Shown one piece after another: positions 669-27,546 of a stretch of 32,707 bases of DNA (within the stretch, counting starts at the first letter, position 1; each line of letters begins with the position of its first letter). Below the pieces are notes generated by a model. That model was not told the DNA's origin and did not search any database. It saw nothing but the letters and a program-made list of their open reading frames with translations. The translations under genes and the position numbers were made by a program. This DNA comes from Syntrophaceae bacterium (GTDB taxonomy: Bacteria; Desulfobacterota; Syntrophia; Syntrophales; Smithellaceae), in assembly GCA_003142535.1 (NCBI GenBank), contig PLMQ01000058.1, positions 1 through 32,707 on the forward strand. Direction: 5' to 3'.

Positions 669-1094
669 ATGAAACTAAACTCCAAATTATTTATTATAAG
701 TTTAACGACGGCGATAATTTTTACGTTCCTTATACTGGTCACTGATCACCAAAATGCTTCTGCTCAAACAAAGAATAATAAAGAGATAAGCACAGAGGGA
801 AAAACCGCTGCGCCATTGGTAACTTTTGTCGAAATCGGCTCTATCAATTGCATCCCCTGTAAAGCTATGCAGCCCATTATGAAAGCAGTGGAAGAGGAAT
901 ATAAGGGGCAGGTGAAGATTGTCTTTCACGACGTCTGGACGGCAAAGGGTAAAGCTGATGCCCGCATATATAATATTAGAGTAATCCCCACACAGGTATT
1001 TCTGGATAAAAACGGCAAGGAATATTTCCGTCATGAGGGATATTTCCCGAAAGAGGAAGTGGTCAGGGTGGTAAAAATGCAAGGGGTCAAGTAA
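669..1094 (+). CDS. Exported thioredoxin-fold protein (CxxC = CIPC)
   Basis: A 141-residue protein when started at ATG 669. An earlier in-frame ATG at 645 lies inside the upstream gene and would add eight charged residues ahead of the signal sequence, so 669 is preferred. Residues 1-33 form a signal peptide or anchor: a basic start, a hydrophobic stretch, then a NASAQT cleavage-like site. The thioredoxin fold follows, with the active site CIPC near residue 61 and the cis-proline segment VIPTQ. It overlaps the next gene (CcdA-like) by 1 bp, TAATG, which implies translational coupling. The likely role is a periplasmic thiol-disulfide reductant that receives electrons through the CcdA-like protein. 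The protein it reduces cannot be read from the sequence. Confidence 0.85.
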   Translation: MKLNSKLFIISLTTAIIFTFLILVTDHQNASAQTKNNKEISTEGKTAAPLVTFVEIGSINCIPCKAMQPIMKAVEEEYKGQVKIVFHDVWTAKGKADARIYNIRVIPTQVFLDKNGKEYFRHEGYFPKEEVVRVVKMQGVK

Positions 1095-1801
1095 TGATCG
1101 TTGATCTCTTTACCTGGCTTTCAGGAACGCTGACGCAGTCACCAGAAATCGCGCTTATCGGCGCTTTCATCTGGGGCGTGCTTTCCGTCGCCCTTTCACC
1201 GTGCCACATTGCCTGTATTCCATTGATTGTCGGCTTTATTGACGGCCAGGGAAATATCAGTACAGGGCGGGCTTTTGTGCTTTCTTCTCTTTTCGGCCTC
1301 GGTATTCTGATAACGATGGGCATCATCGGCCTGATTACCGGTTTAATGGGACGGATGATCGGCGATATCGGCGGCTATGGTAACTACTTTGTGGCGGTCA
1401 TTTTCTTTCTTGTCGGCCTTAATCTACTCGGGGTTCTGCCGCTTCCTTTTATGGAAGGCGGAGCGAACCCGAAATATCAACGCAAAGGAATGCTGGCTGC
1501 TTTCATCTTGGGGCTATTATTCGGCATCGCGCTGGGTCCTTGCACGTTCGCTTATATGGCCACCATGCTGGGTGTTGTTTTCAGCATGGCATCCACCAAA
1601 CTTGTTTTTGCCATATCCCTGCTTCTGGCTTACGGTATCGGACATTGCGCAGTACTTGTTTTTGCAGGGACATTCACGGAAGTTGTTCAACACTATCTCC
1701 ACTGGAGCGAAAAATCCAAAGGCGCAATTATTTTGAAAAAAGTTTGCGGTATTCTCGTGATATTAGGCGGTATTGACTTAATTATACTAAATTTTATTTG
1801 A
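1094..1801 (+). CDS. CcdA/DsbD-like transmembrane thiol electron carrier
   Basis: A 235-residue integral membrane protein with about six hydrophobic segments, matching the size of CcdA-type proteins (the DsbD membrane domain). The two redox cysteine regions of the family are visible: SPCHIAC near residues 34-38 and GPCTFAYM near 150. Such proteins move reducing equivalents from cytoplasmic thioredoxin across the membrane to an exported thioredoxin-fold partner; the partner here is most likely the CIPC protein encoded directly upstream, whose stop overlaps this start. The gene ends with tandem TGA TGA codons, and arsC begins 13 bp later. A role in cytochrome c maturation is possible for the family, but no haem genes are nearby. 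Confidence 0.85.
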   Translation: MIVDLFTWLSGTLTQSPEIALIGAFIWGVLSVALSPCHIACIPLIVGFIDGQGNISTGRAFVLSSLFGLGILITMGIIGLITGLMGRMIGDIGGYGNYFVAVIFFLVGLNLLGVLPLPFMEGGANPKYQRKGMLAAFILGLLFGIALGPCTFAYMATMLGVVFSMASTKLVFAISLLLAYGIGHCAVLVFAGTFTEVVQHYLHWSEKSKGAIILKKVCGILVILGGIDLIILNFI

Positions 1802-1814
1802 TGACCTAAAGGTA

Positions 1815-2249
1815 ATGACGTTCATAAAAAAAAGAGTTCTGTTTTTATGCACAGCTAATTCCTGCCGCTCGCAGATGGCGGAAGGCATCGTCAACCATTT
1901 TCTGGGCGATAAGATTGAGGCATTTTCCGCAGGCACTGAAGCGACATATGTCAATCCCACTGCTATTGAGGTGATGAAAGAAATCGGCATTGATATTTCA
2001 AGGCATGAATCTAAAAATTTAATGGCATTCGATGGACAAAGTTTTGATTATGTCATCACGCTATGCGGCAATGCTAATGAAACCTGTCCGCTTTATATCG
2101 GCGGCGCGAAAAAAACGCATATCGGTTTTAACGATCCGGCCAAAGCCACAGGCACACAAGATGAGATTCTCAAAAAATTTCACCGCGTGCGCGATGAGAT
2201 TAAAGAAAAACTAACTGCCTTTTTTCAGACAGAGAAAATAATTAATTGA
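1815..2249 (+). CDS. arsC: Arsenate reductase, thioredoxin-coupled (LMW-PTP fold)
   Basis: A 144-residue protein with the low-molecular-weight phosphatase loop CTANSCR at residues 12-18 (C-x5-R) and two more cysteines, C84 and C91. This is the same spacing, offset by two, as the C10/C82/C89 relay of Staphylococcus aureus pI258 ArsC. A DP pair follows at about 107-108. The three-cysteine relay identifies a thioredoxin-regenerated enzyme rather than a simple tyrosine phosphatase: it reduces arsenate to arsenite in the cytoplasm, and the Acr3 pump encoded 10 bp downstream can then export the arsenite. Start ATG 1815 has AAAGG close upstream. No arsR-type repressor is visible in the window, so regulation probably lies before position 1. 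Confidence 0.93.
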
Positions 2250-2259
2250 GAGGGAATTT

Positions 2260-3315
2260 ATGTCGGAACATGTTGCCAGTAAATTGTCATTTTTGGATCG
2301 CTTTCTTACTTTGTGGATTTTTGCAGCCATGATTCTGGGTGTGGGGCTTGGCTATTTTATACCCGGCGTCGAGGCCTTTATTAATTCGTTTCAGGTGGGC
2401 ACAACCAATATACCCATTGCCGTAGGACTTATTTTGATGATGTATCCGCCATTCGCCAAGGTGAAATATGAGGATTTACCGCAAGTCTTTCGCAATGGAA
2501 AAGTTCTCGGCCTCTCCCTTGTGCAGAACTGGCTGATCGGACCTGTCTTGATGTTTATCCTGGCCATCGTTTTTTTGCCGGATAAACCTGATTACATGGT
2601 TGGCTTGATTATGATCGGTCTGGCGCGCTGCATCGCGATGGTTATTGTCTGGAATGAACTAGCCAAAGGCAATACAGAATACGCTGCCGGACTTGTTGCC
2701 TTCAACAGTATTTTTCAGGTTCTTTTTTATAGCGTCTATGCCTGGTTCTTTATTACCATCCTTCCGCCGCTCTTCGGACTTTCCGGAAGCATCGTGGATG
2801 TGAGTATCCAACAAATCGCTCAGAGTGTTTTTATTTACCTGGGGATTCCCTGCATTGCCGGCGCATTGACACGGCTCATTGGCGTAAAACTGAAGGGAAA
2901 ACAATGGTATCATGAGCGGTTTGTGCCCGTGATCAGCCCCCTGACCTTAATTGCTCTTCTTTTCACCATTGTCGTGATGTTCAGCCTGAAGGGCAATCTG
3001 ATTATTACACTGCCGCTGGATGTCGTGCGAATTGCAATTCCGTTGTTGATCTATTTTGTAGTCATGTTTCTGGTGTCGTTTTATATGGGCAAAAAACTGG
3101 GGGCGGACTATTCCAAAACGACAACATTAGCCTTTACCGCAGCCAGCAATAACTTTGAGTTGGCGATTGCTGTAGCTGTAGCCGTTTTCGGTATTAATTC
3201 CGGTGCTGCTTTCGCTGCTGTCATCGGTCCGCTTGTGGAAGTGCCGGTAATGATCGGACTGGTTACTGTGGCCTTGAAATTTCAAAAGAAATATTTTATA
3301 CCTATTGGGAGGTGA
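2260..3315 (+). CDS. acr3: Arsenite efflux permease Acr3
   Basis: A 351-residue, ten-segment membrane protein typical in length for the Acr3 (BASS superfamily) arsenite exporter. It begins with the family-like [12 protein letters not shown] and contains the conserved [13 protein letters not shown] segment near 126-139, whose cysteine is functionally important in Acr3 proteins, and the later [10 protein letters not shown] segment near 294-303. It exports trivalent arsenite/antimonite using the proton gradient. Start ATG 2260 is preceded by GAGAGG. Its stop codon overlaps the strong ribosome-binding site (GGGAGGTG) of the next gene. Together with arsC it forms a complete arsenate-to-arsenite detoxification pair. 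Confidence 0.95.
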
Positions 3316-7592: not shown

Positions 7593-8840
7593 TCAAGGAT
7601 GAACGAATATCACCATCAATAAGAATATGACTATAACTGCCGCCACCGATAAACGGGGATGCGGTTTTATGGCATACTTGCTGATAGTATAACTCATCAG
7701 GAAAGATAAAGAGAAAACGATTCCGAACTTTATCAGGCTGGGAGTGCCCACCAGATTAGCCAGTAGCAATTGCAGGACTACTACAATCGGCAGATGCACC
7801 AGATAAATATTATAAGAATTTGCCGCTAAGGTTTCATTGATTTTATTTGGTCGATTCCAATAGCGCACTGCAATGCTCGTAAATACGATGAGAAAAGTCA
7901 CCCTTAGAAAGGAAAAAAGCCACACATACATTATGATGAATTTCATATTGGTTTGATTCGCAATTAAATTGTTGAAATTAACAACATAACCAAAACATAA
8001 AATAATGCATATTGATATCCAGAGAAGGGGATGGCCGGGGAAATTATTATCTTTAACAAACCAGTTTCTGGAGAAGGCATAGATGCCCAGAGCGAAATAG
8101 ATAATGTAAACAGGTAATCGCCAAGTCTGAAATTGAAGAACGTTGAAAATAATTGCCCAAGGGTCGGGATAAGGATAAGGAATAATGGTATTGAGTCTAA
8201 AAATAAATACGCCTAATAACCCAACAAATAACATAACCAGCAGCATTGTTTTTCCAGAGTGTGTTTTTTCTCGAATGGAAGATGAAGGGGAAAGGCGCTT
8301 CTTCAGAGCATATATTATTCCGAATATAATAAAGAAAAAAAGAAGCAGAGAAATAAACCAATAAATAAAATGATTAAAGCTTATACTTGTGCTCCAGAAA
8401 CCCGTATAGAAATTACTTGCACTTTTCATCCAATTTATCCAAAATTGACCGTAGCTTAACAACTGCTGGCCGCCTAAATGTTTATAATAATAGACATAAG
8501 TATAAATGGGTGCAATGAAGATGACGCCAATCAGTAAAGGAATGCCCAGCCTTAGAAATTTGTCTTTAAGAAAAACGAGAGTTCCTTTTTTCTGAATATT
8601 GGGCAGGGCAAAATAACCGGCAATAAAAAAAAGCACCGGCATGATAAACACGTCAATTATCATTCGCATCGCGTCGAAAAATGTGGCGGTTGTAGAAGGA
8701 TCCCAAACAGCCCACCAGAAGGTTAAATTACCGTAGCTGTTCCCTGCATGTTGAAGGACAACAAACGCAACCATTAAATAGCGAATGTTATCTAAAAATA
8801 TAATCCTGTTTTCTGATGAATCCGGTAATGTCGGTGTCAT
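7593..8840 (-). CDS. Acyltransferase 3 family membrane protein, copy 1
   Basis: A 415-residue polytopic membrane protein with about ten hydrophobic segments. The first one carries the family histidine (VLQHAGNSY, about H31), and an FFIAGYFALP segment with basic loops follows, as in acyltransferase family 3 (OafA/OpgC-like). Such enzymes transfer acetyl, succinyl or similar acyl groups onto extracellular sugars or lipids; the acceptor here is unknown. ATG 8840 follows GGAG eight bases upstream. It is clearly paralogous to the two neighbours at 12288 and 13694: they share the MTPTLPE-like start, the FALPNIQKKG segment and the IYLVHLPIVV segment near the C-terminus. Its 3' flank contains a repeat insertion and then a promoter. 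Confidence 0.88.
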   Translation of the reverse strand: MTPTLPDSSENRIIFLDNIRYLMVAFVVLQHAGNSYGNLTFWWAVWDPSTTATFFDAMRMIIDVFIMPVLFFIAGYFALPNIQKKGTLVFLKDKFLRLGIPLLIGVIFIAPIYTYVYYYKHLGGQQLLSYGQFWINWMKSASNFYTGFWSTSISFNHFIYWFISLLLFFFIIFGIIYALKKRLSPSSSIREKTHSGKTMLLVMLFVGLLGVFIFRLNTIIPYPYPDPWAIIFNVLQFQTWRLPVYIIYFALGIYAFSRNWFVKDNNFPGHPLLWISICIILCFGYVVNFNNLIANQTNMKFIIMYVWLFSFLRVTFLIVFTSIAVRYWNRPNKINETLAANSYNIYLVHLPIVVVLQLLLANLVGTPSLIKFGIVFSLSFLMSYTISKYAIKPHPRLSVAAVIVIFLLMVIFVHP

Positions 8841-8956
8841 GATTTTGCTCCTGCCTAATATTACGAATAAAATATTTTACCTTTATTTTGACTGCACCTT
8901 TAGAACCTATATGAGGACCTGTTATTATCACCTTGTTCGTTTCAGGTACGTAGCAA

Positions 8957-10570
8957 TTAATATCCTGGTGGGTGTCTGAATGCGCCGGACGCGCCATCAA
9001 TTGTCTTGGCAACGGACAGGAGTTCCATATCATGCCAGCGTTTTCCCACGATCTGTACGCCTAACGGCAACCCCTGCTGGGTGTGGCCCATAGGTATTAC
9101 CACAACAGGGTTGCCGGTAAGATTGAATATAGTAGGATAGGAGACATTTGCAACCCAGTAATTGAGGGCTTTTTCATCAACCATAATCTTTCCGTTATGA
9201 ACAGGGAGAACGCCGCCCAGATATCGCTCCGGCGGCATGTGGTTAAAAGCAGGTGTCGAGGTAACCGGACAAAGATATGCATCATACGGGGTCAGAAATC
9301 TATCCATTATGGCAATCAGCTTTCCCCTTTTTGTCAGCACTTTTAAATACTTTTCATATGACATGGGGTAAACCATTCGGGATGTTGGGACCTCTTTTCT
9401 CTTGGACGTGCCCGTTACATACTGCAAGAACCGCGCATACCACGGGAGATAAGGCCCGAAGCCTTCCATATCGAGCAAATCACCATATGTGTTCCAGGCA
9501 AGCATAAAATCAAAACCGGGCGGGTTCACCTTTTCCACCTTGCAGCCCTGTTGTGACAGCTTCTCCGCCAACGCTTTAAGCGCGGTTCGCGTTTCCGCTG
9601 TAACCGGCACGCCGCCAAAATCGTCGGTCCAGGCGATACGGAGTTTTTTGAGATCTTTCTTCCCGGTGTCATTGAGGTTCGCGAGAGGGACATCGACATC
9701 GTCTGGATCAGTACCGGCAATGATCGTAAGGGCCAGCTTCAGATCATCAATAGAACGAGCAAGCGGTCCCTGAACAGGGAGGTGAGGTGTGGTTTTGAAA
9801 TCGAATTTCGGCATATCCGGCGTCGGAAGTCCCGGTAAGGAACCAGACAGAGACACCATATGTTGCGTCGGCTTCAGACCGTAAATGCCACAGAAATGAG
9901 AAGGAATGCGGATGGAACCAGCAAGGTCATTTCCTATTTCCAGAGGGCTTAACCCCGCAGCAATTGCCGCTGCACCGCCGCCGGTACTGCCGCCGGGCGT
10001 TCTTGATATATCCCAGGGATTATTCGCCGTGCCGAAGACAGGACTGTTGGCTTGAACATCCATGCCCATGGAAGGCAGGTTGGTTTTTCCGATAATAATG
10101 GCCCCTGCCTTGCGCAACCGCTCAACCACGGGGGCGTCAGCGGATGGCACATACTTGGCGAGGGCGGGCAAACTGCTTGTCGTCTTCATACCCGCGGTGG
10201 CAATGTTGTCCTTGATGGTCATGGGAACGCCATGTAGCGGCCCCCATATCTCGCCTCGGATAAGCGCCTTGTCCGCCTCTTTTGCTCTTTGTCGTGCCCC
10301 ATCTTTGTCGAGGGTAACAATGGCATTGAGCTTACCGTTATGTTTCGCGATCTGTGCAAGATAGGCATCAACAACTTCCAGGGATGTAACCTGTCGTAAT
10401 CGTATCTTCTGAGCCAGCTCACTGGCCGACAAAAAAATAAGATCATGAGATGCAATGCCTTTCTCCATAGCAAAGGCATTGGTTCCGGTAATGATGAGAA
10501 CAGCTATACATAAGCAGATTGTGCCTATTTTTTTAACTAACTTGCGATTGACTAAAGAGTTCTTCTTCAT
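8957..10570 (-). CDS. Exported amidase (amidase signature family)
   Basis: A 537-residue protein. The start is ATG 10570, after GGAGGA; a longer reading adds only seven residues upstream. Residues 1-35 are a signal peptide (KK-rich start, hydrophobic core, NAFA). The amidase signature follows: catalytic Lys in MTIKDN (about K120), PGGSTGGGAAA near 192-202 supplying the cis-Ser, and GNDLAGSIRIPS near 213-224 with the acyl-enzyme Ser (about S219). The family hydrolyses amide bonds through a Ser-Ser-Lys triad; export suggests an extracytoplasmic amide substrate. Many relatives are annotated as GatA-like, but the signal peptide and absence of gatB/C argue against tRNA amidation. It lies 34 bp downstream of the slipin gene and is probably co-transcribed with it. 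Confidence 0.9.
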   Translation of the reverse strand: MKKNSLVNRKLVKKIGTICLCIAVLIITGTNAFAMEKGIASHDLIFLSASELAQKIRLRQVTSLEVVDAYLAQIAKHNGKLNAIVTLDKDGARQRAKEADKALIRGEIWGPLHGVPMTIKDNIATAGMKTTSSLPALAKYVPSADAPVVERLRKAGAIIIGKTNLPSMGMDVQANSPVFGTANNPWDISRTPGGSTGGGAAAIAAGLSPLEIGNDLAGSIRIPSHFCGIYGLKPTQHMVSLSGSLPGLPTPDMPKFDFKTTPHLPVQGPLARSIDDLKLALTIIAGTDPDDVDVPLANLNDTGKKDLKKLRIAWTDDFGGVPVTAETRTALKALAEKLSQQGCKVEKVNPPGFDFMLAWNTYGDLLDMEGFGPYLPWYARFLQYVTGTSKRKEVPTSRMVYPMSYEKYLKVLTKRGKLIAIMDRFLTPYDAYLCPVTSTPAFNHMPPERYLGGVLPVHNGKIMVDEKALNYWVANVSYPTIFNLTGNPVVVIPMGHTQQGLPLGVQIVGKRWHDMELLSVAKTIDGASGAFRHPPGY

Positions 10571-12287: not shown

Positions 12288-13574
12288 TCACACTAACGGA
12301 TGAACGAAAATTAACGGCAATAAAGATATAATCACAGCGGCGGTTGCCGATAAACGCGGATGTGGCTTTATGGCATATCGGCTGATGGCATAACATATCA
12401 GGAAAGATGAAGAGAAAACTATTCCGTACTTGATCAGGCTCGGAGTGCCCGTCAGATTAAACAGCAGCCATTGAAGAATTACAACAATCGGCAGGTGCAC
12501 CAGATAAATATTATAAGAATTAGCTGCCAGCGTTTCATTAACCTTATTAGGACGATTCCAATAACGAAAACTGATGCTCGCAAATAAAATGAGAAAAGCC
12601 GCCCGCAGGAAAGAAAGAACACTCGCACCTATAAAGCGGAGCTCAGAATTGGCCGGGCTGGACATCGAGCTTTTTGTGACTGCAATATAAGCAAAACCTA
12701 AAATAATGCAGATTAATATCCAAAGAAAGGGATGACCGGGGAAATTATTATCTTTAACAAACCATTTCCTGGAGAAGGCAAAAATGCCTAAAACAAAATA
12801 TATTATATACGCAGGTAGCCGCCAAGTCTGAAATTGAAGAACACCGGCAATAATTACCCAGGGGTTGGGATAAGGATAGGGGAGCAAATTAACTATTATG
12901 CGTCCAATTATACACAATATCCCCACAGACAACATAACCAGCAGCATTGTTTTTCCGGAGTCTATCTTCTCGGGAACAGAAGATGAAGGGATGAAGCGCT
13001 TTTTCAGGGCGTATAATATTCCAAATATAATAAAGAAAAAGAGCAATACCGTAATGAACCAGTAAGCAGTATGATTAAAACTAATTTTATCAGGAGATAT
13101 AAAGAAAAGGTTTCCTTTGCTGTTATAGAGAAAACCAGTATGGAAATCACCGGCGGTTTTCAACCAATTTAGCCAAAATTGACTATAATTGGACAACGGC
13201 TGACCGGCTAAATGCTTGTAATGTTGAATATAGGAAACTATGGGAACAATGAAGATGACACAAATCAGCCAGGGAATGCCCAACCGCAGAAACTTGTCTT
13301 TAAGAAAAACGCCGGTCCCTTTTTTCTGAATATTAGGCAAGGCAAAATAACCGGCAATAAAAAAAAGAACCGGCATAATAAACACATCAATAATCATTCT
13401 AGCCACGTTGAAAAAATTAGTAGTTGTAGCAGGATCCCAAACATACCACGATGAGGTAAAACCTGTATAGCCGTTCCCTGTATGTTGAAGGACGACAAAA
13501 GCAATCATTAAATAGCGAAGATTGTCTAAAAATAGAATCCTGTTTCCCGTTTGTTCCGGTAATGACGGTGTCAT
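12288..13574 (-). CDS. Acyltransferase 3 family membrane protein, copy 2
   Basis: A 428-residue polytopic membrane protein. The start is ATG 13574 (MTPSLPEQ), with AGGA nine bases upstream; a longer reading of 27 residues lacks homology to its sisters. The family histidine is in VLQHTGNGY. It is a close paralogue of copies 1 and 3, with a few residues more in the third loop (the NSKGNLFFISPDK segment). It is predicted to acylate an envelope sugar or lipid; donor and acceptor are unknown. It lies head-to-tail with copy 3, 119 bp apart, and has its own promoter block in that gap. Confidence 0.88.
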   Translation of the reverse strand: MTPSLPEQTGNRILFLDNLRYLMIAFVVLQHTGNGYTGFTSSWYVWDPATTTNFFNVARMIIDVFIMPVLFFIAGYFALPNIQKKGTGVFLKDKFLRLGIPWLICVIFIVPIVSYIQHYKHLAGQPLSNYSQFWLNWLKTAGDFHTGFLYNSKGNLFFISPDKISFNHTAYWFITVLLFFFIIFGILYALKKRFIPSSSVPEKIDSGKTMLLVMLSVGILCIIGRIIVNLLPYPYPNPWVIIAGVLQFQTWRLPAYIIYFVLGIFAFSRKWFVKDNNFPGHPFLWILICIILGFAYIAVTKSSMSSPANSELRFIGASVLSFLRAAFLILFASISFRYWNRPNKVNETLAANSYNIYLVHLPIVVILQWLLFNLTGTPSLIKYGIVFSSSFLICYAISRYAIKPHPRLSATAAVIISLLPLIFVHPLV

Positions 13575-13636
13575 GATTTCCTGCTTTCTTCCGGCTTTTC
13601 GTATAGTTTTACAAGAGATTACATATGTGGTGGGGA

Positions 13637-13665
13637 AGTATAAAGGGAAGAGCACCGTGCGTCAA
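13637..13665 (-). promoter_or_regulatory. Promoter for acyltransferase copy 2, duplicated block
   Basis: - strand TTGACG (13665-13660), 17 nt, TATACT (13642-13637). It sits 29 bp after the stop of copy 3 and about 63 bp before the start of copy 2, and matches the blocks after copies 1 and 2. Confidence 0.75.
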
Positions 13666-13693
13666 TAAAATAATGTGCCACAGAACAACGAAA

Positions 13694-14950
13694 TCACACT
13701 CGCGGATAAACGAAAATAACCATCAATAAAAATATAACCAGTATGGCCACTATTGATAAACGGGTATGCGGCTTTATGGCATATTTGCTGATGGCATAGC
13801 TCATTAGAAATGATAATGAGAAAACAATGCCGTACTTGATCAGGCTGGGCGTGCCTGTTAGATTAACCAGTAGCAATTGCAGAACTACAACAATCGGCAG
13901 ATGAACCAAATAGATATTATAGGAATTTGCCGCTAATGATTCATTAATTTTATGAGGACGATTCCAATAACGAAAAGCAATGCTCATAAATACAATGAGA
14001 AAAGTCGCTCGCAGAAAAGAAAGAAAGCATCCACTTATAAAACGTAGTTCGGTATCGGCCGGGTTTGATATATAATTATTCATAATAACAAGATAAACAA
14101 AACATAAAACAATGCATATCGATAGCCAAAGAAGAGGATGGCCCGGGAAATTATTATCTTTAACAAACCATTTTCTGGAGAAGGCATAGATGCCTAATGC
14201 AAAATATATTATATACGCAGGTAACCGCCAAGTCTGAAATTGAAGAACGCCGGCAATAACTAACCAGGGGTTGGGGTAAGGATAAGGAATCACGGTAACA
14301 GACGTGCGCATGATTATACACAATAATCCGACAGATAACATAACTAACAACATTATTTTTCCGGAGTGCCTCTTTTCTTGAATAGAAGATGGAGGAAAGA
14401 AGCGTTTCTTCAGAGTATATATTATTCCGAATATAATAAAGAAAAAGAGGAGCAAAGAAATGAACCAATAAACATTGTGATTAAAACTAATTATACTAGG
14501 ATACAGGAAACCAATGTGGAAATCACTGGCACTTTTCATCCAATTTATCCAGAATTGGCCATAATTTAACAATGGCTGGCCACCTAAATGTTTGTAATGA
14601 TAAATATAAGTAATAATGGGTACAATGAAGATGACCCCAATCAACAAGGGAATTCCCAACCGCATAAATTTGTCTTTAAGAAAAACACCGATTCCTTTTT
14701 TCTGAATATTAGGCAGGGCAAAATAACCAGCAAGGAAAAAAAGGACAGGCATGGAAAACACATCAATTATTACCATAGTTATATCGAAACAAACAATCAG
14801 GCGGTCTGAATCACCAACAGCCCAATACCGGCCAAAAGTGCCATAACTCGCCGCTGCATGAGTCAGGACAATAAACACAATCATTAAATAGCGAAGATTG
14901 TCTAAAAATAGAATCCTGTTTCCCGTTTGTTCCGGTAATGTCGGTGTCAT
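13694..14950 (-). CDS. Acyltransferase 3 family membrane protein, copy 3
   Basis: A 418-residue polytopic membrane protein. The start is ATG 14950 (MTPTLPEQ), with GGAG nine bases upstream. The family histidine is in VLTHAAASY; the residues just after it differ from copies 1 and 2, while the membrane segments and C-terminal half are nearly the same. It is predicted to be an envelope acyltransferase of unknown acceptor. As the first of the tandem pair on the - strand it has no duplicated promoter block upstream. The 285-bp gap before it shows no clear promoter. Confidence 0.88.
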   Translation of the reverse strand: MTPTLPEQTGNRILFLDNLRYLMIVFIVLTHAAASYGTFGRYWAVGDSDRLIVCFDITMVIIDVFSMPVLFFLAGYFALPNIQKKGIGVFLKDKFMRLGIPLLIGVIFIVPIITYIYHYKHLGGQPLLNYGQFWINWMKSASDFHIGFLYPSIISFNHNVYWFISLLLFFFIIFGIIYTLKKRFFPPSSIQEKRHSGKIMLLVMLSVGLLCIIMRTSVTVIPYPYPNPWLVIAGVLQFQTWRLPAYIIYFALGIYAFSRKWFVKDNNFPGHPLLWLSICIVLCFVYLVIMNNYISNPADTELRFISGCFLSFLRATFLIVFMSIAFRYWNRPHKINESLAANSYNIYLVHLPIVVVLQLLLVNLTGTPSLIKYGIVFSLSFLMSYAISKYAIKPHTRLSIVAILVIFLLMVIFVYPRV

Positions 14951-15172
14951 TATTTTGCTCCTTTCCCTGCCTACCACCGAGATCGGTTAATATCTTTTTT
15001 CATAGTTAACGGCATAAACTAATCGGCCGTATGTTTTTTAACCCGCCTCATAAATAAGGGGGTTTCCCCTTTACCCTAATTAGGGGCCATCGCACCAAAC
15101 GGAATTTTATGTAAGTTAAGCTTTTCGTAATGGACGAAACTGCCCTCGTGCCACAATTATTTTTTGCTTGAC

Positions 15173-21089: not shown

Positions 21090-22841
21090 TTACTTGCCGA
21101 TCAAAGATTTCGCCCATCGGGCAGCGCGGATAATTTTATTGATATCCTCGATCATAATCCGATTTTGTTTAATGGAAAAGAGATTCGCTTCGGCGGCAGC
21201 GACAAATACTTTTTCCACTTTGGCAACAGGCACACCGAGGTCATCAGCAATTCTTGCGGCGATTTTATCAATGGAAACCATAAACATTTTTTTGTCACCG
21301 GTTTCGCTCTTTAAAATCAGATACAACTGTTGAAGGACAAAAGGAGTACATTCCATTGTCAGATGCGGGTGAATAAACATGTCCGCCGCTTGCAGCCTGC
21401 GGGTGATTGTAGAAACTATTTTTTCAATATAGGGTGGTAGTTTTTTTAAATTACGGGCAAGATGCTGTTTTGTTAATACGGCAACTTCTGTATCTTCGAG
21501 AGCTTTTACGCTGGCCGAACGTTTGTCATTGGTAATCAGAGCCATTTCTCCCACAATGTCCCCTTCCTGTAGTGTGCTCAACAGGATTTTGGTGCCGCCT
21601 GATTCCTTGAAAACCTGAACGCTGCCTTTGGTGATCAGATAAGCTTCTTCACCCGGTTCTCCTTCCTGCATAAGAAACTGATCGCAGGCAAAGTTTTTCT
21701 TTTCCTGTTTTGACCATTTGCCGGAAATAATATCATCCACATCGGCAATTAATTCTTGCACGCTGTGATAGCGATCTTCTTTTTTGAATGCTGTCGCCTT
21801 CGTTATTATCCGGCATAATTCTTCCGGAATCAGCCTTTCAGGGTTGCGGGTTTGCGGCGGAATCATGTCGCGATGCTCGGCTTTATTAAGAACATCCAGA
21901 ACACTATTTCCCTCATATGGTGGTTCCAGCGTTAACATATGATAAAGAGTTGCGCCCAGTAAAAAAATATCTGTTTGTTTGTCCGGGGCAGCGCTATCCA
22001 CCTTTACTTGTTCTGGAGCCATGTAAGCCGGAGAACCCTGGATAATTTGCCTGTCTCTATTGGAGGCTATGGAAATATCCCTAAGGATTTCCCGGTGAGC
22101 TGAATTTTCTTCCTTTTCCGGATCACCGATATACCGTGCTAAGCCCCAATCCATAACCATGACTTCACCATACTGGCCGACAATTACATTATGGGGCTTA
22201 ATATCCTGATGAATGATATCTTTGGAATGGGCAAAAGCAATGGCATCACAAATCTTCCGGAAAATGTTCAGAAGGTCAAATATACTGAATTCTTCAACAT
22301 ATTCCGGAGTACCTTTTTTTATCTCTTTTATAATATAATTAAGAGGTTCTCCTTCCACCATTTTCATGGTGAAATAAAGCCCCGTTTCATTAGATAATCC
22401 CAGTTCATGAACCGGAACAATATTGGGATGTTCCAGCAAACCGGTAATTTTGGCTTCTTTGATTAATTCATTGAGGGCATCGCGGTCATTTTTCAAAGAC
22501 GGCAGAACAACTTTCATGGCCGCAGGGCGCTGCAAATCCTGGTCGATTACGTTTAATATCGCTCCCATTCCGCCGGAAAATAGTTTTCTCTGAAATTTGT
22601 ATTTATTATCTTTCTCTCTCTTGATTGCTACCCGATAAAGATCTTTTTCGAGATCGGATATACCCAGAAGCCTGAAGTCGGTTTCCGGTATTTGCTCTTC
22701 CGAAGTGCAGCGGTGTGTTTGTTTATAGGTGCTGTAGCTTGCCTCTGATTTTACCTTAATTCCGGCATCCGATATTATTACGGTATCTTCGCAGTTAATA
22801 GTAACTGTCTTATCAATTTTTTTTGTTATCGACATATACAT
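21090..22841 (-). CDS. Ser/Thr protein kinase with C-terminal cyclic-nucleotide-binding domain
   Basis: A 583-residue cytoplasmic protein. The kinase domain (about 82-375) has SGGMG (89-93), catalytic Lys110 in AAMKVV, HQDIKPHN at 211-218 (HRD changed to HQD), DWG at 231-233 in place of DFG, and APE at 275-277. A cNMP-binding domain follows (about 383-480) with an intact phosphate cassette, GEMALITNDKRSASV, keeping the arginine. The last 80 residues resemble a Crp-like winged helix (KIAARIADDLGVPVAKVEKV). It probably couples a nucleotide signal to phosphorylation. ATG 22841 and ATG 22835 are both possible; the second has AGGATG upstream. No membrane segment is seen. It is convergent with the GIY-YIG gene. 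Confidence 0.88.
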   Translation of the reverse strand: MYMSITKKIDKTVTINCEDTVIISDAGIKVKSEASYSTYKQTHRCTSEEQIPETDFRLLGISDLEKDLYRVAIKREKDNKYKFQRKLFSGGMGAILNVIDQDLQRPAAMKVVLPSLKNDRDALNELIKEAKITGLLEHPNIVPVHELGLSNETGLYFTMKMVEGEPLNYIIKEIKKGTPEYVEEFSIFDLLNIFRKICDAIAFAHSKDIIHQDIKPHNVIVGQYGEVMVMDWGLARYIGDPEKEENSAHREILRDISIASNRDRQIIQGSPAYMAPEQVKVDSAAPDKQTDIFLLGATLYHMLTLEPPYEGNSVLDVLNKAEHRDMIPPQTRNPERLIPEELCRIITKATAFKKEDRYHSVQELIADVDDIISGKWSKQEKKNFACDQFLMQEGEPGEEAYLITKGSVQVFKESGGTKILLSTLQEGDIVGEMALITNDKRSASVKALEDTEVAVLTKQHLARNLKKLPPYIEKIVSTITRRLQAADMFIHPHLTMECTPFVLQQLYLILKSETGDKKMFMVSIDKIAARIADDLGVPVAKVEKVFVAAAEANLFSIKQNRIMIEDINKIIRAARWAKSLIGK

Positions 22842-25034: not shown

Positions 25035-25179
25035 ATAGTGCGAGCTTTGCAAAACTCCGCTATTCGTCATTCCGGCGAAAGCCGGAATCTAGGAAATACT
25101 TGATAATACTGGATTCCGGCTTTCGCCGGAATGACATAATTGCTGGTTTTATACAGTTTTGCAAAGGTCTCATAGTGCG
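25035..25179. mobile_element. Repeat R1, copy 2: MITE-like element with 8-bp duplication
   Basis: Element 25043-25171 with terminal inverted repeats (CTTTGCAAAACT at 25045-25056 and its complement near 25154-25166) and a long internal palindrome (GTCATTCCGGCGAAAGCCGG against its complement ending GGAATGAC). ATAGTGCG flanks it at 25035-25042 and 25172-25179, as expected for a target-site duplication. No transposase is encoded, so it would need one in trans. It ends about 40 bp before the fusion gene at 25219. Confidence 0.75.
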
Positions 25180-25218
25180 GTATTTCTAATTGGTCACTAA
25201 TTTAAAGGAGAAAAAAAT

Positions 25219-27546
25219 ATGGAACTCCAGGGATTCCTTAAAGGCATCGAAATCATCTCTGATTTGCCGGATGAAGATATAAACCTCATTGCTAAAAATG
25301 CCCAGCTTCTGGATTTTCCGGATGGAACCGTTGTTATCGGAAGAGGTGAACTGGGCCGTTTCCTCTGGATCGTTTATGAAGGAGAAATGGAAGTCCTGCT
25401 TACCGAGGATAATGGAAACAAAAGGACAATTGCCACATTGGAACGGGCGCAAGTCTTCGGGGAAATGTCGCTTTTGACCGGGGAGCCGGCAGTTCTGGAT
25501 GTAATTGCCAATGGTGCAGCCAGGCTTCTGCGAATTCCGCGGGAGATTTTTTCCCGTATCATTGCCGGTAATCCCCAAACGCTCGGCAAATTCACCCGCC
25601 TGGTAACGAAGAGAATGCTCCGTAATGAACAGGATGACGCCCGGATTCGCCTGAAAAATGTTCACAAGGAAAATGAAGACCCTTATGATCTGAACTTCTC
25701 TTCCGTCGCCGATCCGCTGAAGATTCTTACGGTGAACTGTGGCAGCTCATCCTTGAAATATACATTATTTGATACGACAAAAAATGAGCCGGTCATGGAA
25801 GGGCTTATCGAAAAAATCGGGTCCGGCGATGCTTCTCATGTCATTAGGACAACGGAAACAAAAAAAGAGCAACCGGCCAAAAACATAATGGTTATTGAAG
25901 ATGCTTTCCGGATGATGGTAGCCACTATCACGGACAAGTCAAATACAGGAATAAGTGATCTGGGAGAGATAAGGGCTGTCGGGCACCGCGTTGTGCACGG
26001 CGGGGCTAAGTTTCCCGTTGCGGTTCTGATCAATGATGAGGTGTCCGCGTCCATTAAAGAGCTTAATCCTCTTGCTCCCCTGCACAATCCCTACAATCTG
26101 GAAGGGATCGAATTGATGAAGAAACTTATTCCTGCCGTGCCGCAGGTTGCCGTTTTTGATACGTCCTTTCATATGAACATGCCGGAAAATGCCTATACGT
26201 ATGCGCTGCCTTATGAAATCTGCGAGCAGGAGCAGATTCGTCGCTACGGTTTTCATGGAACGAATCACAAATTTGTCGCTCTGAGCGCAGCAACTTTCCT
26301 CAAGCGTCCGCTGGGGGAGTTACGGATGATTTCCTGCCATTTGGGAAGTGGCGCTTCCGTTTGCGCCATCGATCGCGGGCAGAGTGTTGATACGAGTATG
26401 GGGATGACCCCGCTGGAAGGTTTGGTTATGGGTACGCGGGCAGGGGACGTTGATCCCGGTGTAATCCTGCATCTGCTGCGGCACCGCAAGATGAGCGCCG
26501 ATGAAATTGATCAGATGCTCAATAAAAAAAGCGGCCTTCTGGGCATCAGCGGTAAAAGCAATGATATGCGGGAGATTTTATCGGCGGCCGAAGCTGGTGA
26601 TATGCGCTGCAAAAGAGCAATTTCAACTTTCTGCTACAGGATCAGAAAATATATCGGCGCCTATACGGCTGCGATGGGCGGACTGGATGTGCTGATTTTC
26701 ACTGGCGGAATCGGTGAGAATTCGGCGGAAATCCGCTCGCGGATCTGTCAACTCATGGAGGCATTCGGTATCTTTGTTTTAGATGATATTAACCGGAATG
26801 CCCATGTTCAGCACGGTCAGATAACAGATATTGCCGAGCCCCGCTCCCGCGTCCGGATTCTCATAGTTCCGGCTGATGAAGAAAAAATGATTGCCCGCGA
26901 AACACTTCATGCGTTGGGCAGGGTGAGGACAAAAGACGATATTCAAAAACTCCAGTCCCTTCCTATTCCCATATCTACTTCGGCCCATCATGTCCACTTG
27001 AGTCAGAAAGATTTTGAAATTCTCTTCGGCGCCGGGCAGGTAATGTCGCCGCGCTCGGAACTCAGCCAGCCCGGGCAGTTTGCCGCTGTCCAGGCGGTTA
27101 ACCTCATTGGCCCGAAAGGGAGAATTGATCACGTCCGGATTCTCGGCCCCGCCCGTAAAGAATCGCAGGTGGAAATATCGCGCACGGAACAATTCAAGAT
27201 GGGCATTGATGCGCCCACCCGGGATTCCGGAGATATTGAAGGGACTCCGGGAATCACACTGGAAGGAGAACTGGGAACGCTCAAATTAAGCAAGGGTGTA
27301 ATCTGCGCCAAGCGCCATATCCATATGTCTCCGGCGGAAGCTCTGAGTCTCGGCTTGCGCGATAGGGATGTAGTTATGGTCAAGGTTAAAGGCGTGCGGG
27401 AAATAATCTTCGGAGATGTGCTTGTCCGCGTTCATCCTGATTACCGGATGGATATGCATCTTGATACGGATGAGTCCAATGCCGCCCAGATTTCCGAAGG
27501 AACAGTTGGTTACATTGAAGCCATCCAGCACCGCAATTACATGTAA
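25219..27546 (+). CDS. Three-domain fusion: cNMP-type sensor, acetate kinase, PduL phosphotransacylase
   Basis: A 775-residue cytoplasmic protein. Residues 1-135 are a Crp-like cyclic-nucleotide-binding fold (FLWIVYEGEMEVLL, then FGEMSLLTGEP), but the usual arginine of the phosphate cassette is absent (GEPAVLDV). Residues 167-567 are a full acetate kinase: NCGSSSLK (173-180), GHRVVHGG (255-262), FDTSFH with Asp314, GFHGTNH (344-350), CHLGSG (373-378), GGIGEN (496-501). Residues 573-775 are a PduL-type phosphotransacylase with both zinc-ligand motifs, HHVHLS (590-595) and KRHIHMS (698-704), plus a C-terminal MHLDTDESNAA. Together they would convert acetyl- or propionyl-CoA to acyl-phosphate and then to acid plus ATP. 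AAAGGAG precedes ATG. A mobile repeat lies just upstream. Confidence 0.93.
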   Translation: MELQGFLKGIEIISDLPDEDINLIAKNAQLLDFPDGTVVIGRGELGRFLWIVYEGEMEVLLTEDNGNKRTIATLERAQVFGEMSLLTGEPAVLDVIANGAARLLRIPREIFSRIIAGNPQTLGKFTRLVTKRMLRNEQDDARIRLKNVHKENEDPYDLNFSSVADPLKILTVNCGSSSLKYTLFDTTKNEPVMEGLIEKIGSGDASHVIRTTETKKEQPAKNIMVIEDAFRMMVATITDKSNTGISDLGEIRAVGHRVVHGGAKFPVAVLINDEVSASIKELNPLAPLHNPYNLEGIELMKKLIPAVPQVAVFDTSFHMNMPENAYTYALPYEICEQEQIRRYGFHGTNHKFVALSAATFLKRPLGELRMISCHLGSGASVCAIDRGQSVDTSMGMTPLEGLVMGTRAGDVDPGVILHLLRHRKMSADEIDQMLNKKSGLLGISGKSNDMREILSAAEAGDMRCKRAISTFCYRIRKYIGAYTAAMGGLDVLIFTGGIGENSAEIRSRICQLMEAFGIFVLDDINRNAHVQHGQITDIAEPRSRVRILIVPADEEKMIARETLHALGRVRTKDDIQKLQSLPIPISTSAHHVHLSQKDFEILFGAGQVMSPRSELSQPGQFAAVQAVNLIGPKGRIDHVRILGPARKESQVEISRTEQFKMGIDAPTRDSGDIEGTPGITLEGELGTLKLSKGVICAKRHIHMSPAEALSLGLRDRDVVMVKVKGVREIIFGDVLVRVHPDYRMDMHLDTDESNAAQISEGTVGYIEAIQHRNYM

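Follow-up and report, generated by a model that had tools for sequence, protein, structure and literature searches.

Among the genes of the window (the whole 32,707-nucleotide stretch of DNA that was analysed), one encodes a chain in which a domain of the cyclic nucleotide-binding (CNBD) fold, an acetate kinase (AckA) and a PduL phosphotransacylase follow one another. The fusion is genuine, old and widespread, and it probably acts as a bifunctional enzyme to which a CNBD-fold domain is attached. Judging from the residues of the ligand pocket, the role of that domain is most likely something other than canonical cAMP/cGMP sensing.

Three complete domains in one chain

An earlier sequence-only reading had described a Crp-like sensor domain, a complete acetate kinase and a complete PduL in one frame without a frameshift. 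This description holds: full-length Pfam matches, the modelled folds and the recurrence of the same frame in independent genomes all support it. Over the 775 residues of the chain, Pfam places cNMP_binding (PF00027) at aa 32-116 with 62 bits against a cut-off of 27.5, Acetate_kinase (PF00871) at aa 168-560 with 483.5 bits (cut-off 22) and 392 of 392 profile positions covered, and PTAC (PF06130) at aa 584-758 with 242 bits (cut-off 25) and 175 of 176 positions. NCBIfam agrees, with the ackA subfamily and phosphate propanoyltransferase models above their cut-offs and the acetate kinase model TIGR00016 at 481 bits against 293.

An AlphaFold2 model of the chain, for which 39 family members served as input, is confident (pLDDT 88.5, pTM 0.86). 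In fold comparisons its kinase part matches the solved acetate kinase 1g99 (TMt 0.94), its PduL part matches 5cuo (TMt 0.96, 1.1 Å) and its N-terminal part matches the CNBD 5kjx (TMt 0.77). The linker motif DPYDLNFSS between the first two domains is strongly conserved, and its DPY is kept in nearly all three-part chains. The positions of these features are collected in Table 1.

Table 1. Features of the three-part gene and its surroundings, in window coordinates
Feature	Position	Strand	Basis or remark
CNBD-AckA-PduL three-part gene	25219..27546	+	775 aa, ATG start, single open frame
In-frame stop TAA upstream of the ATG	25198-25200	+	Sequence read
Shine-Dalgarno-like AAGGAG, ATG 8 nt downstream	25205..25210	+	Sequence read directly
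CNBD, aa 1-140, degenerate ligand pocket	25219..25638	+	Pfam (aa 32-116); pocket analysis
Arg47, where ordinary CNBDs from the same scan mostly have Asp or His	25357..25359	+	Pocket analysis
Phosphate-binding-cassette equivalent GEMSLLTGEPAVLDV, aa 81-95	25459..25503	+	Ala91 stands in place of the canonical Arg, Asp94 in place of the canonical Thr/Ser
Linker motif DPYDLNFSS, aa 154-162, CNBD/AckA junction	25678..25704	+	Conservation
Acetate kinase domain, aa 168-560	25720..26898	+	Pfam, NCBIfam, residue comparison
Ser377, corresponding to Asn211 of M. thermophila AckA (PHOSPHATE2)	26347..26349	+	Residue comparison
PduL/PTAC domain, aa 584-758	26968..27492	+	Pfam; residue comparison

Distribution of the fusion

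Scanning 155 genomes of the order recovered the full-length three-part chain in 26, at 61-80% identity to the window chain, and pieces of it at contig ends in several more. Two copies occur in 4 of the 155 when contig-end pieces are counted. These genomes (G150, G151, G152 and G154) each carry two diverged three-part paralogues, those of G150 and G154 sharing about 65% and 55% identity with the window chain. A two-part AckA-PduL chain without the CNBD was found in 8 of the 155. When 395 genomes were sampled evenly across the phylum, long matches were few and came only from the order and one other family.

A wider survey, in which named genomes were scanned with a profile of the CNBD plus linker and the matches then submitted to a domain scan, found the three-part layout at loci from about eight phyla. 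These include Smithella and other Syntrophaceae, Deltaproteobacteria labelled as Myxococcota, Nitrospirota (Ca. Magnetominusculus), Ca. Fischerbacteria, Aminicenantes, Hydrogenedentes, a planctomycete and Pseudomonadota, among the last the isolate Sulfurisoma sediminicola (L069). In a tree of the AckA domain the three-part chains cluster, with a single label change needed and weak support (57/61), a topology that allows one origin of the fusion and does not prove it. The Smithella locus (L033) falls inside the window chain's own family in this tree, from which the placement in the Smithellaceae is deduced.

The sequence-only reading had named a sequencing error joining separate genes as one thing that would overturn it. 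Many independent genomes carry the uninterrupted frame with 61-80% identity, and it is uninterrupted again in the S. sediminicola isolate; a sequencing or assembly error that fused adjacent genes is therefore excluded for practical purposes, its probability being negligible.

The PduL half

The PduL domain of the window chain is 43% identical to the Rhodopseudomonas palustris enzyme (5cuo) and contains both PduL histidine motifs. The zinc ligands of the latter (PMC4784909), H48, H50 and E109 for Zn1 and H157, H159 and H204 for Zn2, correspond to H591, H593, E652, H700, H702 and H747, and its phosphate arginine R103 is conserved as R646. The two proteins differ in that the window PduL is fused to a kinase and lacks an encapsulation peptide, in a genome devoid of microcompartment genes. 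Shell genes (PF00936) were found in none of 34 genomes (the window's own and 33 relatives) by a search whose control finds those of E. coli and Synechococcus. A link to microcompartments, from which PduL is best known, was rejected on this ground. In the chain of Ca. Magnetocorallium (L048), the CoA-site residues of PduL are altered while the zinc ligands are kept and the kinase hallmarks are intact, a drift opposite to that of the four Pseudomonadota chains described below.

The kinase half

The kinase domain shares its fold and hallmarks with the AckA enzymes of Methanosarcina thermophila (1g99) and Thermotoga maritima (2iir), to which it is about 45-47% identical across the domain; it differs from them by a serine in place of Asn211 and by its position within a longer chain. 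Across a hallmark set that comprises N7, S10-S12, K14, R91, H123, D148, F179, H180, N211, P232, G239, R241, G331, E384 and others, 17 of 18 positions are identical to the M. thermophila enzyme, the sole exception being Asn211, which is Ser377 here. The catalytic residues N7, R91, H123, D148, H180, R241 and E384 are all conserved. So are V93, L122, F179 and P232 of the acetate pocket, which favours acetate as the substrate.

The motifs of both enzymes had been called intact. For NCGSSSLK, GFHGTNH, GGIGEN and the PduL histidine motifs this is accurate, and Asn211 is the point at which the statement needs correcting. When this asparagine of M. thermophila AckA was replaced by serine, only 4.4 of 883 units of specific activity were left, an approximately 200-fold loss, whereas fungal AckA naturally has serine at this position (PMC4390882). 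Apart from L014 and L015, all chains of the Syntrophales type have this serine, and it may weaken the kinase and make its step slow.

In four three-part chains (L059, L061, L062 and L069) the kinase site is destroyed, the equivalents of S10, S12, K14, N211, G239, G331 and E384 all being replaced. Every compared PduL residue is kept in these chains, the CNBD persists and the kinase fold is still under constraint. They likely form a pseudo-kinase branch within the Pseudomonadota. The former kinase may act there as a scaffold that joins CNBD and PduL, or as a relay from one to the other. Both of the genomes of this branch that were checked contain another acetate kinase, which in L061 is an intact ordinary AckA. 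This AckA appeared as a protein of 800-900 aa and was considered as a further fusion; that idea was rejected, since its first 400 aa have no Pfam match and seem to be read out of frame.

A remodelled cyclic nucleotide pocket

Ordinary CNBDs hold the phosphate of the cyclic nucleotide through an arginine in the phosphate-binding cassette (PMC12422582). This residue is present in none of 35 distinct fusion chains (Ala in 19, Thr in 14, Ser in 2), whereas of the 62 other CNBDs encoded at the retrieved loci 59 have it (Fisher p about 3e-23, although kinship among the sequences means that such p-values overstate independence). The loss spans about eight phyla and is not a selection effect, since the scan patterns omitted that position. 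Other pocket residues have changed as well. Position 47 is Arg or Lys in 29 of 35 fusions and in 4 of 62 other CNBDs, which mostly have Asp or His there; position 94 is Asp in 28 of 35 fusions and in 8 of 62 others, where Thr or Ser is usual. The cassette glutamate Glu82 is retained in all 35 fusions.

The CNBD and the linker are under purifying selection, with pairwise omega in the CNBD of about 0.05-0.26. The domain is therefore not decaying, and together with the conserved linker this constraint indicates that it does something. With the phosphate-binding arginine absent from every fusion examined and the pocket remodelled, switching by cAMP or cGMP in the usual way is unlikely. The earlier label of a cNMP-type sensor is thus not supported in the form in which it was given.

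Two genes away in the window, a Ser/Thr protein kinase (21090-22841, minus strand) ends in a CNBD whose cassette arginine is retained (GEMALITNDKRSASV), and class III cyclase genes are present in the genome. The organism therefore probably has ordinary cyclic-nucleotide signalling, which the fusion protein appears not to use.

Proposed function and alternative readings

The reading that we favour, and consider fairly probable, is a cytoplasmic bifunctional enzyme of acetyl-CoA/acetate interconversion under a repurposed CNBD. The PduL domain would interconvert acetyl-CoA and phosphate with acetyl-phosphate and CoA, and the kinase domain would interconvert acetyl-phosphate and ADP with acetate and ATP. 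The CNBD fold would have been recruited into the fusion once or a few times and then remodelled, presumably losing the canonical binding of the cyclic nucleotide phosphate. By way of the conserved DPY linker it would most likely govern how active the enzyme is, how it oligomerises or which partners it binds, either with a ligand other than cAMP or cGMP or with no small ligand at all. Of the original interpretation, the two-enzyme part is supported by the complete domains and the kept catalytic residues, and the cAMP/cGMP-type sensor is the part that lacks support. The domains, the conserved residues, the distribution, the purifying selection and the loss of the arginine are observed directly; the two activities, the direction of the reactions, any channelling and the regulation are deduced from them.

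The CNBD might instead be purely structural, an oligomer-holding or docking part without any sensing. The loss of canonical ligand contacts across the family and the strong conservation of the linker suit such a role, and enzymes of the acetyl-CoA/acetate pathway are known oligomers. However, R47, D94 and E82 are conserved in their new form rather than drifting, and this, like the strong selection on the domain, is what a ligand site or a specific contact would lead one to expect; we regard a structural role as possible but doubtful. It would be less probable still that the domain is a true cAMP/cGMP switch with a non-canonical mode of binding, in which Arg47, for example, takes over from the cassette arginine. 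The fold is clear from both Pfam and the fold match, Glu82 is invariant, the genome encodes cyclases (one such gene lies near the fusion on a relative's contig), and a CNBD-regulated metabolic enzyme, mycobacterial Pat (Rv0998), was itself retrieved as a fold match. Yet the arginine is missing from the whole family when nearly all other CNBDs have it, the aspartate that replaces Thr/Ser in most fusions would repel a phosphate, and the protein kinase CNBD in the same window shows that the organism's ordinary CNBDs are intact. For these reasons such a switch seems improbable.

The kinase residues raise the further question of whether the fusion is mainly a regulated phosphotransacylase whose kinase half is weak or a scaffold. 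The serine at the Asn211 position in nearly all Syntrophales-type chains speaks for this, as do the Pseudomonadota chains, where the kinase residues are replaced beside an intact PduL in genomes that, in the two cases checked, hold another acetate kinase. The window chain fits it poorly: every other kinase hallmark is kept, serine is natural in fungal AckA, and the genome has no other acetate kinase. We therefore consider this reading unlikely, if somewhat less so than a cyclic-nucleotide switch. More tentatively, a CNBD rebuilt for a non-cyclic-nucleotide signal (possibly a pathway metabolite) could be combined with a proteobacterial kinase half that has become a non-catalytic relay from sensor to PduL; this is a speculative proposal, with odds against it.

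Relation to known systems

PduL domains without encapsulation peptides have been described in multidomain proteins, most of which carry an acetate kinase annotation, and it was proposed that an AckA-PduL fusion may allow channelling (Erbilgin et al., 2016, PMC4784909). Neither the two-enzyme fusion nor the channelling idea is therefore new. The window chain shares with those two-domain fusions the order of kinase then PduL and the missing encapsulation peptide, and differs by its N-terminal CNBD and DPY linker. To the question left by the sequence-only reading, whether the three-part architecture had been described, the answer is thus divided: the AckA-PduL part is published, and for a CNBD placed atop it no paper was found in the open-access literature searched, which is weak evidence of novelty. 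The window chain is only about 50% identical to the AckA-PduL chains without CNBD from its own order. In a set of these CNBD-less chains (L018-L023) V93 of the acetate pocket is Gly, which suggests a larger acyl substrate.

CNBD-controlled enzymes are known in general, and Pat is a cAMP-responsive enzyme. Pat (Rv0998, 4ava) and the window chain both have a CNBD ahead of an enzyme of acyl metabolism; the catalytic domains are unrelated, however, and the CNBD of the window chain lacks the phosphate-binding arginine. The loss of this residue throughout the fusions is a warning against taking every CNBD as a cAMP/cGMP sensor.

Metabolic setting and gene neighbourhood

How syntrophs living at the energetic limit obtain ATP from acetyl-CoA is a real question. 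Syntrophus aciditrophicus is reported to have neither AckA nor Pta and to run acetyl-CoA synthetase in reverse (PMC4992975), and the patchy presence of the fusion gene in the order fits this report. Relatives within the order carry the fused enzyme, and it could be overlooked or wrongly labelled when only pta or a separate ackA is looked for. The genome to which the window belongs measures 2.93 Mb and is rated 100% complete. Neither a further AckA or PduL nor a Pta/Ptb (PTA_PTB, control positive) was found in it; one clear AMP-forming acetyl-CoA synthetase gene and several genes of ADP-forming-type synthetases are present. If the CNBD controls the fused enzyme, substrate-level phosphorylation would be open to direct allosteric control at this step.

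The neighbouring genes, for a DEAD helicase and a TPR protein, lie on the opposite strand, so the fusion gene stands alone. Operon context was tried as a clue to function and set aside, for the neighbours are not conserved and indicate no pathway: across the window and the annotated relatives there is no conserved partner gene, the neighbours being helicase, TPR, RadC, MFS, polyA polymerase, secretion ATPase and other genes. The window has no Rfam match that could point to an RNA regulator upstream of the gene, and promoter-like sites did not exceed those in shuffled sequence. About 85 nt upstream of the gene, at 25066-25135, lies a 27-nt near-perfect inverted repeat (ATTCCGGC-type palindrome) that looks like a dispersed repeat.

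On one relative's contig (L117) the fusion has a GGDEF gene on one side and a gene for a GAF-class III cyclase on the other (8088-9338 and 12903-15167, both on the minus strand), an arrangement seen only there among the relatives with annotated neighbours. An ABC ATPase-CNBD fusion lies close to the three-part gene of another relative (L121, 5750-6883, plus strand). Elsewhere in the window, at 1094-3315 on the plus strand, there are arsenic-type genes for an ArsG-like permease and an ACR3 arsenite efflux transporter.
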